A stretch of DNA of 49,646 bases from IMG/VR virus record IMGVR_UViG_3300044825_001194, positions 1 to 49,646 of that record. One strand, given 5' to 3'. Source of the DNA: a virus. This document shows positions 2-28,570 of the stretch, one piece after another (position 1 is the first letter of the stretch; every line of letters begins with the position of its first letter). The notes under the pieces are model-generated. The model did not search any database. It was not told the origin of the DNA and saw only the letters and a program-made list of their open reading frames with translations. Made by a program: the position numbers and the translations under genes.

Positions 2-2119
2 AGTGGAATCGTAGTTGGTTCTTCTTCAAGTATTACTATTGGTGATACTTTTATAAGAAGAGGTGCCGTTGGTTTAGGAACTACAACGACCACTGGACGA
101 AATGCTGGTATTAATACTTCTACTGGAACAATTATATACAATGAATCTTTAAGAGAAGTTCAGGTCTATAAAGGTGCTTCGCTTGGTTGGAGAAATATTT
201 CTGAATCCTTTATTGAAGCTACTGGTGGAGTTATTAACGAATATACTGAAGGTTCTACTGTTTATAGATCTCACGTTTTTAGGACCTCAGGAACTTTCAA
301 TGTCAGTAAAGCTCCATCTAATGCTACCATTGAATTTCTTGTAGTTGCTGGCGGAGGAGGAGGAGCTTCTGGTGGTGGAGGCGCTGGTGGTTATAGAACT
401 AATGTTCCTCCTAGCGTTGCTCCTTCAACTCATAATCCAGGAAACCCTTATCCAATTTCAAGCGGTACTTATGTAGTTGTTGTTGGTTCTGGTGGAAATG
501 GGGGACTGGCAGGACCGGGACCAGGAGCATGGGATGGCAGTGATAGTTCTTTCGGTGGTGTTATTACTGCGAATGGCGGCGGAGGCGGTGGATTTATTAA
601 CGCTAATACTGCTAGATCTGGTGGTTCTGGCGGTGGTTCTGGTAGAGCATCTGTTGCAACTTACGCCGGAGCACCAACAATACCATTACAAACAAATACT
701 GGATCTGGTGGTGGTCCTGGACCTGGACCCTTTACACAAGGTTTTCCTGGTGGTAATAATAATGCTGCTCCAGCTTACAATGGTGGCGGCGGCGGTGGAG
801 CAGGTGGTGCTGGTGGAAATGCTTCACCAGGTAGTGGTTCTGGAAACTCTCCAATTTTAGCTGGTCCTGGTGGTGTTGGTTTACGTAATACAATTGCTGG
901 ACCTGGAATTGCCGGTGTTCCTGGACCTGGTGGAACTACTGATTGGTTTGCAGGTGGCGGCGGCGCCGGTGGTGACGGTGGTGGTAGCCCATCATCTCCT
1001 GGCGGCGGTCCTGGTGGTCCATTTGCTGGTGGTGGTGATGGTACTTATGGTGCTGTTAGAGCTAATAATGGTACTCCTGGAACTGGTGGTGGCGGTGGAG
1101 GTTCTGGTGGTCCTGGTGTTGAGTCTGGTGGCAATGGTGGTTCTGGTATTGTAATTGTCCGTTACCAGATTTCAGAAGCATCAGGAACAGCAAAAGCAAC
1201 TGGTGGTGCTATAACTTATGCTGGTGGCAAGACGATTCATACATTTGTAAATTCGGGAACCTTTACAGTTACCAATCCTGGTTTAACTTCTGTTGATTAC
1301 CTTGTTGTTGGTGGTGGTGGCGGCGGCGGTGGAGATCTTGGTGGTGGCGGTGGATCTGGAGGAATGAGAACAGGAAGCGGTCTTCCCGTAAGTGCTTCTC
1401 CTGGAGTTTATCCAGTTACTGTTGGTTCTGGTGGACTTGGTGGAATATATGGACCAGCTAGAAATACTCCACAAACAACGGGTCAAAATGGAACTCCTAG
1501 TATTTTTTCATCAATAACCTCTCAAGGTGGCGGCGGCGGCGGTGTATATGGTACTAGTAGTGATTCAAATACATTAAAAGTTGGAAAGAACGGTGGATCT
1601 GGCGGAGGCGGTGGATCTGGTGAATCTGTTGCTCAGTCCGGTGGAACTGGAAGCCGAGAAGTGGGAACTACAAATCCAGCACCATCACAAGGAAATCCTG
1701 GTGGATCCAGTTCATATACTCCATACTATGGTGGCGGCGGTGGTGGTGGAGCTGGTGCTCCTGGTGGAAATGCTCCTACTAGTGCCTTTACGGCTGGTAA
1801 TGGCGGTGCTGGTCTTGCTTCCGCTATCTCGGGAACATCAATATATTATGCTGGTGGTGGAGGAGGAGGTATATATGGTCCCTCCGGCGCTAGTGTTGTT
1901 TATGGATATGGTGGAATTGGCGGTGGCGGAGATGGAGGATCTGGAAGTGGCCCAGTAGTTTTAAGACCAGGACCGGGTCAGGGACCTTCATCTGGAAAAA
2001 ATGGATTACAAAGCACTGGTGGCGGTGGAGGTGGTGGATCTTATTCTGTTCCTGAATCTGTAGGTCAATGGGGTGGTTCTGGTGGTTCCGGTATTGTCAT
2101 CATCGCCTACCCATCATAA
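2..2119 (+). CDS. Glycine-rich adhesin-like tail fibre protein (5'-truncated by window edge)
   Basis: The reading frame is open from the first bases, so the start lies outside the window. The product has an N-terminal fibre module (GDTFIRRGAVGLG, TTTTTGRNAG, a QVYKG segment) and then two tandem glycine-rich domains. Each domain opens with a strand resembling HVF.TSGTFNV followed by EFLVVAGGGGGG or DYLVVGGGGGGG, and closes with GGSGIVIVRY or GGSGIVIIAYPS. This matches the Gly_rich_2-type domain of phage fibres. Poly-glycine blocks like these form packed polyglycine-II helices in the gp38 adhesins of T-even phages, which bind the host surface. Host recognition is therefore the likely role, by inference. 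Two similar genes follow at about 3.4 and 5.6 kb. Confidence 0.85.
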   Translation, partial: SGIVVGSSSSITIGDTFIRRGAVGLGTTTTTGRNAGINTSTGTIIYNESLREVQVYKGASLGWRNISESFIEATGGVINEYTEGSTVYRSHVFRTSGTFNVSKAPSNATIEFLVVAGGGGGASGGGGAGGYRTNVPPSVAPSTHNPGNPYPISSGTYVVVVGSGGNGGLAGPGPGAWDGSDSSFGGVITANGGGGGGFINANTARSGGSGGGSGRASVATYAGAPTIPLQTNTGSGGGPGPGPFTQGFPGGNNNAAPAYNGGGGGGAGGAGGNASPGSGSGNSPILAGPGGVGLRNTIAGPGIAGVPGPGGTTDWFAGGGGAGGDGGGSPSSPGGGPGGPFAGGGDGTYGAVRANNGTPGTGGGGGGSGGPGVESGGNGGSGIVIVRYQISEASGTAKATGGAITYAGGKTIHTFVNSGTFTVTNPGLTSVDYLVVGGGGGGGGDLGGGGGSGGMRTGSGLPVSASPGVYPVTVGSGGLGGIYGPARNTPQTTGQNGTPSIFSSITSQGGGGGGVYGTSSDSNTLKVGKNGGSGGGGGSGESVAQSGGTGSREVGTTNPAPSQGNPGGSSSYTPYYGGGGGGGAGAPGGNAPTSAFTAGNGGAGLASAISGTSIYYAGGGGGGIYGPSGASVVYGYGGIGGGGDGGSGSGPVVLRPGPGQGPSSGKNGLQSTGGGGGGGSYSVPESVGQWGGSGGSGIVIIAYPS

Positions 2120-11669: not shown

Positions 11670-12641
11670 ATGTCTGTATCTATCAGCGGAGACGGTTCAG
11701 TAACTGGCATTGACCAAGGATTTAATATTGTTGGTGTTGTAACTGCCTCTGGTGGTTTTAATGGTAACTTGACTGGTAATGTTACTGGTAATCTTAATAG
11801 TAGTGGGGTTTCTACATTTACTAACGGTCCTGTCCTGATTGGTTCTGGAACTTCAACAGGAACCGCATCGCAAAGATTACAGGTCACTGGTGGTGCTTAT
11901 GTGAGTGGTAGAATTGGCGTAGGATCAACGAATCCAACGGATAGTTTAACTGTTAATGGAACAATTCTTTCTATAGATGAGTTACGCTCTGATAATCATC
12001 TTAACTTAAGAAAAACAACCTTAAATAATATCTATTTTGCTGATGCTCTTGCTTTTGCTATGACTGGCACAGGTGAACGAGCTCGCATAGATAATTCTGG
12101 TAACTTACAACTTTCAACTGCCAACACATCAATCTTAAATAGTTCTGGAAGGAAAATACTAAATCAAACTGGAGGTATTCTTCAGGTTGTACAAACTATA
12201 AAAACCGATACTTTTACTTCAAGTAGTACTTCACCTACTGCTATTACTGGATTGTCTGCTTCTATAACTCCATCAAGCACTTCAAGTAGGATACTTGTAA
12301 TGTATTCTGTTAATTATGATAGTAATAGAGGCAACAGTGGTGGTGGATTTAGAATTTATAGAGATGGATCACATATAACTGCTGCTTCTGGAGCAGCTGC
12401 TGGTAGTAGATATACTGTAACTGGCGATTTCGGATCAAATAATGATGCTGACCAGTCGGGAATGCATCGCTCTTTTACCTATATAGATTCTCCAAGTTCA
12501 ACAAGCTCTTTAACTTATCAAATTTACATCGTTCAAGATAGTACTTTTACAACCTATATTAATAGATCTAGAGCAGACGCAGATCAAGGTGACGACCCTA
12601 GAATGTCCTCAACAATTACTTTAATGGAGATTTCAGGATAA
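11670..12641 (+). CDS. Modular tail fibre with jelly-roll tip (LMEISG class)
   Basis: The protein has 323 residues with a strong AAGGAGA site before the ATG. The shaft contains GNLTGNVTGNLNSSGVSTF and a 'PVLIGSGTSTGTASQ' block shared with the gene at 12966. NLQLSTANTSILNSSGRK is shared nearly identically with the gene at 19839. The C-terminal domain of about 140 residues (TGLSASITPSSTSSRILV through STITLMEISG) is a beta-sandwich tip also found at 19839 and 23022. All three members of this class are followed by an overlapping small gene of one family. The receptor is unknown. Confidence 0.7.
   Translation: MSVSISGDGSVTGIDQGFNIVGVVTASGGFNGNLTGNVTGNLNSSGVSTFTNGPVLIGSGTSTGTASQRLQVTGGAYVSGRIGVGSTNPTDSLTVNGTILSIDELRSDNHLNLRKTTLNNIYFADALAFAMTGTGERARIDNSGNLQLSTANTSILNSSGRKILNQTGGILQVVQTIKTDTFTSSSTSPTAITGLSASITPSSTSSRILVMYSVNYDSNRGNSGGGFRIYRDGSHITAASGAAAGSRYTVTGDFGSNNDADQSGMHRSFTYIDSPSSTSSLTYQIYIVQDSTFTTYINRSRADADQGDDPRMSSTITLMEISG
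12103..12197 (+). repeat. Direct repeat block A (copy 1), shared fibre module
   Basis: About 95 bp nearly identical to 20420-20514. It encodes NLQLSTANTSILNSSGRK and the residues after it. Differences are few and mostly silent, which points to recent exchange or duplication between two fibre genes. Confidence 0.75.
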
Positions 12642-25222: not shown

Positions 25223-26227
25223 ATGTCTGATATAAGATTCAATCGTTGGTTACATCAATCTGGTACTGGCGGAGTCTATCAGGATTCCACTGGTAGAGTC
25301 GGTATCGGAACCTCTGTACCAACGAGTGCCTTGGATGTTCAGTCAGGAACAATTAAGATTGGTAATAATACTTTAAGTTCTTCTGGAGTTTCTACTTTTA
25401 CAACAGTTAGTGCCACTACCGTAAACACTACAAGTATTACAGTTTCCTCGGGAACTACTGCGGCACCATCAATAAGTCCAAGTGGAGACTCAAACACCGG
25501 AATCTTTTTTCCTGCTGCCGATACCATTGCTTTTGGTGAAGGTGGTGTTGAGGTAGGTAGGTTTGATAGTAGTGGTCGTTTGGGTATAGGGACCGCAAAC
25601 CCATCACAAAAATTTGAAGTTGTTGGTGGAGAAATCAAGGCAGGTAGAAATGATACATCTAGTGAGGGTGGTCAGGTAAGTTTTGGTAGAGCAAGTGATA
25701 ACAATACTGGTTGGTACATTGATGTTTATGGAAGCACCTCAACACCAAGTCTTCGTTTCGTTGATGTTAGCAATGCGGCAGTAAGAGCAACTATTGATAA
25801 TAATGGTAATGTGCTAAAACCATACCAAAGTTTTTGTGACACAGGAGACACAACTTCTTATAATGGGGCAGGAAGTTTAACAGTAATTGGTGCATCTTCT
25901 GCTAAAGGAAACTGGTCTTCTACGGTTACAAATATTGGAAATAACTTTAGCACTTCCACAGACTTATATACTTGCCCAGCTTCTGGTGCTTATGCTATTT
26001 CTTGTACTTGCTCTATTGATAACTTAACCCCAGCACCATATAGAACTATTTTTGTTCTTTCAATCAATGGTGGATATGAAGAAATTACTGAAGTATTTGA
26101 TACTTATGAAAACCAAAGTCCTTGTGTGATACGTTATTGTTCTGCGAATGATACAATAGGTCTTGGTATAAATGGAACTGGTGGGTCTAGTTTTCACGTA
26201 AGACTTCAAGTTTATTTTCTAGGATAA
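25223..26227 (+). CDS. Tail fibre with C1q-like C-terminal domain
   Basis: The protein has 334 residues and starts MSDIRFNRWLHQSGTGGVYQ. The shaft contains GRVGIGTSVPTSALDVQSG, SPSGDSNTGIFFPAADTIAF and GIGTANPSQKFEVVGGEIKA, which are typical fibre repeats preceding C1q-like or S74 tips. The tip begins NIGNNFSTSTDLYTCPASGA and ends VRLQVYFLG. It is the last gene of the fibre array; the next feature downstream is an early-type promoter. Confidence 0.7.
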   Translation: MSDIRFNRWLHQSGTGGVYQDSTGRVGIGTSVPTSALDVQSGTIKIGNNTLSSSGVSTFTTVSATTVNTTSITVSSGTTAAPSISPSGDSNTGIFFPAADTIAFGEGGVEVGRFDSSGRLGIGTANPSQKFEVVGGEIKAGRNDTSSEGGQVSFGRASDNNTGWYIDVYGSTSTPSLRFVDVSNAAVRATIDNNGNVLKPYQSFCDTGDTTSYNGAGSLTVIGASSAKGNWSSTVTNIGNNFSTSTDLYTCPASGAYAISCTCSIDNLTPAPYRTIFVLSINGGYEEITEVFDTYENQSPCVIRYCSANDTIGLGINGTGGSSFHVRLQVYFLG

Positions 26228-26297
26228 TAAAGATCTATAACTTCTCTTCAACGGCAACAAACCGAGTCTACTGATAAACTCATACTTTGTCAACCCC

Positions 26298-26326
26298 TTG
26301 ACACTTGATTCAAAATTCCGTATAAT
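26298..26326 (+). promoter_or_regulatory. Perfect sigma-70 (early) promoter
   Basis: TTGACA (26298-26303), a 17-bp spacer and TATAAT (26321-26326) are both exact consensus. The 11 bases CCCCTTGACAC (26294-26304) recur at 49623-49633, at the far end of the window. Confidence 0.85.
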
Positions 26327-26331
26327 ATCAA

Positions 26332-26431
26332 GGTCTTCAACATCCTTGTAACTTTGGGAATGAAGACCCTCTCTGTGGTGGGAGAGGTGAGTTGGTGGTA
26401 TAATGAGGAGGGTTTTATACCCTCCTTTTTT
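26332..26431 (+). ncRNA. Candidate structured small RNA or leader with three hairpins
   Basis: The region begins about 6 nt after the -10 box of the perfect promoter and ends at a strong terminator, giving an RNA of about 100 nt. Hairpin 1 is GGTCTTCA (26332-26339) with TGAAGACC (26361-26368), an exact 8-bp stem. Hairpin 2 is CCTCTC (26368-26373) with GAGAGG (26382-26387). Hairpin 3 is the terminator. No convincing open reading frame is present. It could be a regulatory RNA or an attenuating leader for the glutaredoxin operon. Confidence 0.5.
26405..26431 (+). terminator. Rho-independent terminator
   Basis: GGAGGG (26407-26412) pairs with CCCTCC (26420-26425) around a 7-nt loop, followed by six T. 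It lies between the early promoter and the glutaredoxin gene. Confidence 0.8.
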
Positions 26432-26464
26432 CTATTATAAATTAATATAAAATCATAACAAATT

Positions 26465-26707
26465 ATGAACTTTACTGTATATTCAAAAGAAGACTGCCCA
26501 TACTGCTACAAAGTCAAACAAGTTCTTGAGTTGACAAACAGTAATTTTGTGGTTTATAATCTCAATGAACATTTTACAAAAGATGAGTTTTATGCCGAGT
26601 TTGGCGAAGGCTCTACTTTCCCACAAGTTATCTGTGATGATAAGAAATTAGGAGGATCCGTTGACACAATCAAATTCCTCAAGGAACAACAAATCATCAA
26701 ATCCTGA
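26465..26707 (+). CDS. Glutaredoxin
   Basis: The protein has 80 residues. The dithiol active site CPYC is at residues 11-14 after MNFTVYSKED. FPQVICDDKKLGGSVD contains the cis-proline and the glycine pair that bind glutathione in the family. Phage glutaredoxins donate electrons to ribonucleotide reductase and similar enzymes in the cytoplasm. The coding region begins 34 nt after a terminator, so expression needs read-through from the early promoter or a start in the A/T-rich gap. Confidence 0.9.
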   Translation: MNFTVYSKEDCPYCYKVKQVLELTNSNFVVYNLNEHFTKDEFYAEFGEGSTFPQVICDDKKLGGSVDTIKFLKEQQIIKS

Positions 26708-28371: not shown

Positions 28372-28388
28372 ACTGAATAGGACGGAAG

Positions 28389-28405
28389 TAAGCCGACTCG
28401 GAACG
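28389..28405 (+). repeat. AAGCCGACT direct repeat, copy 1
   Basis: TAAGCCGACTCGGAACG lies upstream of the 50-aa gene. It is matched by AAGCCGACTGAAGGAACG at 28559-28576. Confidence 0.5.
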
Positions 28406-28417
28406 GATCGTTCATCT

Positions 28418-28570
28418 ATGGAAACACTCTTATTAACTTGTTTACAAGCACAGTTAATGGTTGGGAGAGTTTATAAAGTTGATATTCCAAAACAAGCAAA
28501 AAATGATTTGATTTGGGAAATCAAACAGATTACTCCAAAGGAGTGTAAAATAGACGCAAAAGCCGACTGA
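28418..28570 (+). CDS. Small protein, possibly exported (50 aa)
   Basis: The protein starts METLLLTCLQAQLMVGRVYK and ends KECKIDAKAD. A short hydrophobic start with a cysteine and a second cysteine near the end resemble the neighbour at 28165. There is no strong ribosome site. The stop lies within the second copy of an AAGCCGACT repeat whose first copy lies just upstream of the gene. Confidence 0.5.
   Translation: METLLLTCLQAQLMVGRVYKVDIPKQAKNDLIWEIKQITPKECKIDAKAD

Follow-up and report, generated by a model that had tools for sequence, protein, structure and literature searches.

We describe a predicted small structured RNA, about 100 nt long, whose stems covary while its loops stay nearly invariant. 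One named phage has a homologue, as do over 60 distinct sequences taken from contigs of uncultivated cyanophages. The RNA was identified in a window of 49,646 bases (the whole stretch of viral DNA that was analyzed) from an uncultivated virus, which is closest to Synechococcus phage S-SRM01, a T4-like freshwater cyanophage (Kyanoviridae, Serangoonvirus). In the window, the locus sits between a tail-fibre gene (25223-26227, phrog_18345) and a glutaredoxin gene (26465-26707, plus strand; PF00462 E = 1.1e-11, phrog_22), a neighbour that lies outside the small RNA. We think it probable that 26332-26431 is an independent early gene for a stable small RNA, one that most likely acts in trans through exposed loops. 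An initial annotation of this DNA had proposed that a strong early promoter makes a short structured RNA here, and covariation, together with the promoter and the terminator being kept in homologues, gives this proposal strong support. The conservation signal is unusually clear. For lytic phages, only a small number of trans-acting small RNAs are known, and for cyanophages, a group with an influence on the primary production of lakes and oceans, the number is smaller still. The one named phage that carries the RNA, S-SRM01, is an isolate with a named host, Synechococcus SR-C6, so that expression, partner, and effect of the RNA can be tested directly.

The elements of the locus all lie on the plus strand. 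The promoter (26298-26326) is of the sigma-70 type (early), with boxes TTGACA at 26298-26303 and TATAAT at 26321-26326 separated by 17 bp; the initial annotation called it perfect, and it does score 12 of 12 against the consensus. The 49.6 kb window contains a single 12/12 promoter with this spacer, versus 0.05 in dinucleotide shuffles. From the promoter and the terminator, we predict that the RNA would start at 26332-26334 and end at the U tract 26426-26431. The segment 26332-26431 has a folding energy of -38.3 kcal/mol (z = -3.36 vs. shuffles), and it matches the covariance model of the family with 102.6 bits, the sole significant match within the window.

Hairpin 1 (H1, 26332-26368) consists of an outer stem of exactly 8 bp, in which GGTCTTCA (26332-26339) pairs with TGAAGACC (26361-26368), an inner stem of 4 bp (26343-26346 with 26356-26359), and an apical loop of 9 nt, UGUAACUUU (26347-26355); compensatory changes are found in both stems. 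The exact 8-bp hairpin of the initial annotation is this outer stem, and what it treated as the loop contains the inner stem, which went unmentioned. Hairpin 2 (H2, 26368-26387), noted there as a 6-bp hairpin, indeed has 6 bp, plus a U.G pair closing the hexaloop GUGGUG (26375-26380). Its arms are 26368-26374 and 26381-26387, and double changes occur in five of the seven pairs, the closing pair being variable. C26368 is able to pair in either hairpin. There follows a linker (26388-26404), unpaired in the predicted fold, which carries a second GGUGGU (UGAGUUGGUGGUAUAAU), and then an intrinsic terminator (26405-26431) with a nine-pair stem at 26405-26427 followed by U6 to 26431. This terminator, and the extent 26298-26431 originally given to the whole unit, agree with the sequence, and the arrangement goes far beyond what chance would give.

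How widespread is this RNA? Our survey of homologues began from the best 80 viral-contig loci by closeness of glutaredoxin. Directly upstream of glutaredoxin and on the same strand, the RNA is present at 41 of these 80 nearest loci, and at three further loci (L033, L056, and L057) it lies about 0.7 kb upstream. A scan with a pattern for the conserved core, which detects only relatives having the conserved loop, matched at least 119 stretches, at least one of which (L100) is a chance match. The covariance model, which describes the first 73 nt of the RNA (73 positions, 18 pairs), recovered 80 of 80 test loci, the weakest with E = 5.6e-8. When we looked at 20 chosen contigs in which glutaredoxin has no adjacent RNA, one only had the RNA, namely the contig of L057 already mentioned. 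One of the copies, in L041 (2875-2946), is decayed: the promoter is lost, the loops are altered, and the stems are partly broken, and it is still found upstream of glutaredoxin.

Among 50,697 phage records, a BLASTN search with the RNA and its divergent variants finds S-SRM01 only, the remaining hits being to the terminator alone or unrelated. The covariance model reports nothing credible in S-PM2, P-SSM2, P-HM2, S-T4, S-SKS1, DSL-LC02, DSL-LC03, P-TIM68, S-PRM1, S-H34, ACG-2014d, ACG-2014f, Sf-CH8, Sf-FS3, or S-8S53; a weak match in Sf-FS3 (19.5 bits) was dropped, as it has no recognisable H1/H2 loop and falls in coding-looking sequence. Judging from these comparisons, only some of the T4-like cyanophages carry the small RNA. 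Lack of the RNA in a given relative is weak evidence, because most homologues are contig fragments. As for the hosts, a scan of 84,980 bacterial and archaeal genomes, using the core pattern instead of the full model, gives no match in cyanobacterial genomes: there are 15 matches in total, none titled cyanobacterial, with about eight expected by a rough estimate. As far as the core pattern can tell, these matches are at chance level and non-cyanobacterial, and we reject a host origin of the RNA.

The initial annotation suggested a covariance search in related phages, and that search finds conserved pairing with compensatory changes. In the alignment fitted to the model, with 64 distinct rows, 98.6% of the cells are paired, and 9 of the 18 model pairs show double changes. 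We count 64 doubly changed cells, versus 12.0 +- 2.8 in shuffled alignments and 0-4 when the pairing partners are slid. Because an alignment that was fitted to the model could owe some of this signal to the fit, we repeated the count on the ungapped starting alignment, which was not fitted. There, 99.7% of the cells are paired, and 11 cells are doubly changed versus 3.5 +- 1.8 shuffled and 0-3 slid. In the fitted alignment, even the pair closing the GUGGUG loop appears as U.G, C-G, U-A, A-U, or G.U. We take the structure of the RNA to be under selection, as the pattern of substitutions indicates.

The loops behave in the opposite way to the stems. The hairpin 1 loop UG[UC]A[AU]CUUU, together with the U..G that closes it, is found in 61 of 63 distinct sequences, the hairpin 2 hexaloop is exactly GUGGUG in 59, and the linker UGGUGGU is present in 49 of the same 63. 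Near-invariant loops on covarying stems suggest that the RNA offers these loops to a partner.

Promoter and terminator are conserved along with the structure. We scored 72 distinct upstream regions, and the promoter reaches 12/12 in 59 of them and 11/12 in 11; in all 70 of these well-scoring promoters the spacer is 17 and the -10 box ends exactly 3 nt ahead of the start of the model. The spacers themselves are 61 distinct 17-bp sequences with 47% mean pairwise identity. The two exceptions are the decayed RNA of L041 and the L108-type copy discussed below. At the other end, of 65 distinct homologues, 61 show a recognised U run where the terminator lies, and almost all of these runs follow a stable stem. 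The zero terminator energy of three homologues comes from the script, which mishandles a U-rich loop. The terminator stems vary between sequences while the terminators are kept. Both promoter and terminator thus look to be under selection. What we have is a short, non-coding, structured, and conserved RNA enclosed by its own promoter and its own terminator, which is what characterizes a stand-alone small RNA.

The RNA is not tied to one position. It lies about 6.7 kb upstream of glutaredoxin in contigs G004, G005, G007, and G015-G019, and 3-4 kb from it in G008 and G014. A second copy, at a distance of about 42 kb, is found in four of these contigs (G004, G005, G016, and G018). It has a good promoter in G004 and G005, where we read the sequence; the copy nearer to glutaredoxin in the two-copy phages has no recognisable promoter. 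Copies of this latter kind (L108/L115-type) are found between a small gene and a collagen-like fibre gene, and in L115 (3440-3550) the collagen-like fibre gene comes directly after the RNA. The well-promoted copy in L105 (7020-7160) precedes a small gene and then a gene that, from our reading of its sequence, we take to be a Phd/YefM-type antitoxin. In L090, a second promoter with hairpin 1, probably the copy at 1501-1522 (minus strand) rather than the one at 12618-12639, runs into a glycine-rich fibre-type gene at a GTGGTGG motif; this second copy is either a recombination product or an assembly chimera.

These positions bear on a different interpretation, also put forward in the initial annotation, namely that the RNA is the leader of the glutaredoxin operon and an attenuator of it: the promoter would drive glutaredoxin, and the hairpins would choose between termination at 26431 and read-through. 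The 41 of 80 nearest loci with the RNA directly upstream of glutaredoxin on the same strand speak for it, as does the lack of any other perfect promoter just before the glutaredoxin start. An attenuator would be expected always to lie directly upstream of the gene it controls, but in several phages this RNA is 0.7-7 kb from glutaredoxin, and second copies occur elsewhere. Glutaredoxin has a conserved leader element of its own, TATAAATTA (26436-26444, plus strand), which has one mismatch to the late motif TATAAATA. The form ATAAATTA is found within 60 nt of the glutaredoxin start at 41 of 41 loci with an adjacent RNA, and also at 14 of the 39 loci without one. Moreover, the genes downstream have a probable promoter inside glutaredoxin. 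At 26531-26560 (plus strand), the coding sequence contains a promoter-like TTGACA-18-TATAAT. Of 107 distinct glutaredoxin genes, 99 have it at this position (0-based offset 66), and the Leu codon there is TTG in 97 of 100, versus 29% overall. We regard it as a conserved intragenic element that probably serves as an early promoter of the genes beyond glutaredoxin. Finally, the terminator stems change while hairpin 2 is constant, and we therefore see no conserved antiterminator pairing in the alignment, read by eye. Given the distance, the two copies, the separate leader, and the probable intragenic promoter, the RNA is independent of glutaredoxin, and an attenuator of its operon is unlikely.

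The leader element deserves a comment. Of 858 genes in these phages, 77 have the late motif TATAAATA upstream, versus 3 in control positions, whereas TATAAATT shows no enrichment upstream of genes, genome-wide in the same phages. Since only TATAAATA is enriched genome-wide, we rejected TATAAATTA as a late promoter; we call it late-promoter-like and go no further, because TATAAATT itself shows no enrichment. As to a cis role of the RNA in general, most copies sit just upstream of glutaredoxin and may have a role there, and the promoterless L108/L115-type copy is open to such a reading at its own location. Against a cis element, the two-copy phages also carry the RNA elsewhere, and the second copies in G004 and G005 are well promoted.

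Could the locus matter as DNA, with the RNA itself inactive? It might be a transcriptional insulator or a recombination anchor at the border of an exchangeable tail-fibre cassette. Its location between fibre genes and glutaredoxin fits this, and so does the second copy in L090, which runs straight into a fibre-type gene as it would after recombination. But an anchor would need sequence identity, not compensatory base-pair changes, and it would not need a promoter of fixed geometry around a spacer that has diverged, and we rate this explanation slightly below the attenuator.

The initial annotation saw no open frame here, which is not quite correct, as an ATG at 26360 opens 26 codons (MKTLSVVGEVSWWYNEEGFIPSFFLL). 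That this is the gene of a tiny protein is nevertheless hardly credible. In its favour, the frame is open in the window, and 52 of the 65 distinct homologues have an ATG there. Against it, the homologues would give 52 different peptides (10-65 codons), close relatives differ in both frame and stop, the other 13 homologues start with TTG, CTG, GTG, or ACG, the changes track pairing rather than codons, and no peptide is conserved among the 65.

We return to a small RNA acting in trans. In T4-like phages, a promoter of the sigma-70 type points to transcription early in infection and by the polymerase of the host. Host RNA polymerase would then transcribe this RNA early from its near-perfect promoter, with the intrinsic terminator expected to stop it before glutaredoxin. 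The transcript should fold into the two covarying hairpins and the terminator. An RNA whose 5' end is paired in a stem should be protected from RNase E, and with its own 5' end locked in the first stem the present RNA is presumably stable. Its action in trans would involve the G-rich linker and the near-invariant loops UG[UC]A[AU]CUUU and GUGGUG. The partner would be conserved among hosts, either a host RNA that it would base-pair with or an RNA-binding protein that it would occupy. Our preferred reading is such a host-shared partner, and we make no choice between the two.

A regulatory RNA acting on host or phage RNAs had been suggested from the start. We infer that the RNA is regulatory, in agreement with this, and its phage half, an mRNA target in the phage, is unsupported: comparing mean pairing energies with those of shuffled loops, in S-SRM01, three large contigs, and the window, we find for conserved phage mRNAs (149 ortholog groups) no pairing better than that of the shuffled loops. 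By eye, pairing with Yfr1-type or anti-Shine-Dalgarno sequences looks possible in some variants but not conserved, and we dropped it. A more specific proposal, which we offer as speculative and consider unlikely to be right, is that of a counter-defence or takeover RNA, stable, with invariant loops that mimic a ligand and switch the partner off early in infection. The partner would in that case be a conserved cyanobacterial RNA-binding protein or an RNA-controlled defence system.

In kind this is a phage-encoded small RNA, and the family appears to be new. Comparison with Rfam 15 (4227 families) gives no match at the gathering cut-off in the whole window, and around the RNA, allowing E-values up to 10, only chance-like ones (RsaF, rpsL_ricks, and STnc50, with 21-23 bits vs. 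cut-offs of 55-60). Trans-acting small RNAs of phages include the lambda sRNA of about 88 nt, AgvB of prophage Sp5, and IpeX (reviewed in PMC12197685). The present RNA is, like them, a short stand-alone phage RNA that may act on host RNAs or regulators. Those come from phages and prophages of E. coli and other bacteria, and some of their targets are known, whereas the present RNA is found in T4-like cyanophages and we find no sequence relation to them.

Some cyanophage RNAs have been described before. PMC12197685 describes CfrI of cyanophage S-PM2, attributed to Millard et al. 2010, as a cis-antisense RNA of about 225 nt adjoining psbA and tied to a homing endonuclease. Going by that account, both are non-coding RNAs of T4-like cyanophages, but the present RNA, of about 100 nt, is intergenic and not antisense to an annotated gene, S-PM2 is without it, and its place between a tail-fibre gene and glutaredoxin is neither antisense to psbA nor next to a homing endonuclease. 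The conserved structured RNAs wcaG, manA, glnA, and PhotoRC-II of cyanophages and marine metagenomes (Weinberg et al. 2010, PMC2864571; PMC9964418) are described as cis-regulatory in the case of the first three and as psbA-associated in the case of PhotoRC-II. Our RNA shares with them a conserved structure in cyanophages; it differs in having no Rfam match and a downstream gene that varies. An abiF RNA (Rfam) has been reported in S-CREM1, a cyanophage of Synechococcus (PMC9964418), and as a small RNA of such a phage it is comparable, but the present RNA has no match to abiF, even at E-values up to 10. None of these RNAs, which are the cyanophage RNAs in the literature within our reach, is the present one. 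The paper on S-SRM01 (PMC8557907) lists tRNA genes, and a search of its text turned up nothing on non-coding or small RNA.

Two other stretches of the window caught our attention. Just 3' of the fibre gene (26227-26297), a stretch CTTCTCTTCAACGGCAACAAACCGAGTCTACTGAT resembles TTCTCTTCAACCCTGACAAAGCAGACTCTACTCAT in L077, a locus in which no RNA was found adjoining glutaredoxin. And at 28377-28425, an element of about 50 bp recurs with 90-96% identity in marine cyanophages that are only distantly related (S-PM2, P-SSM2, P-SSM5, and single-cell contigs). This element has no match in Rfam; its counterpart in S-PM2 is intergenic, after speD, and it is perhaps a conserved regulatory element.
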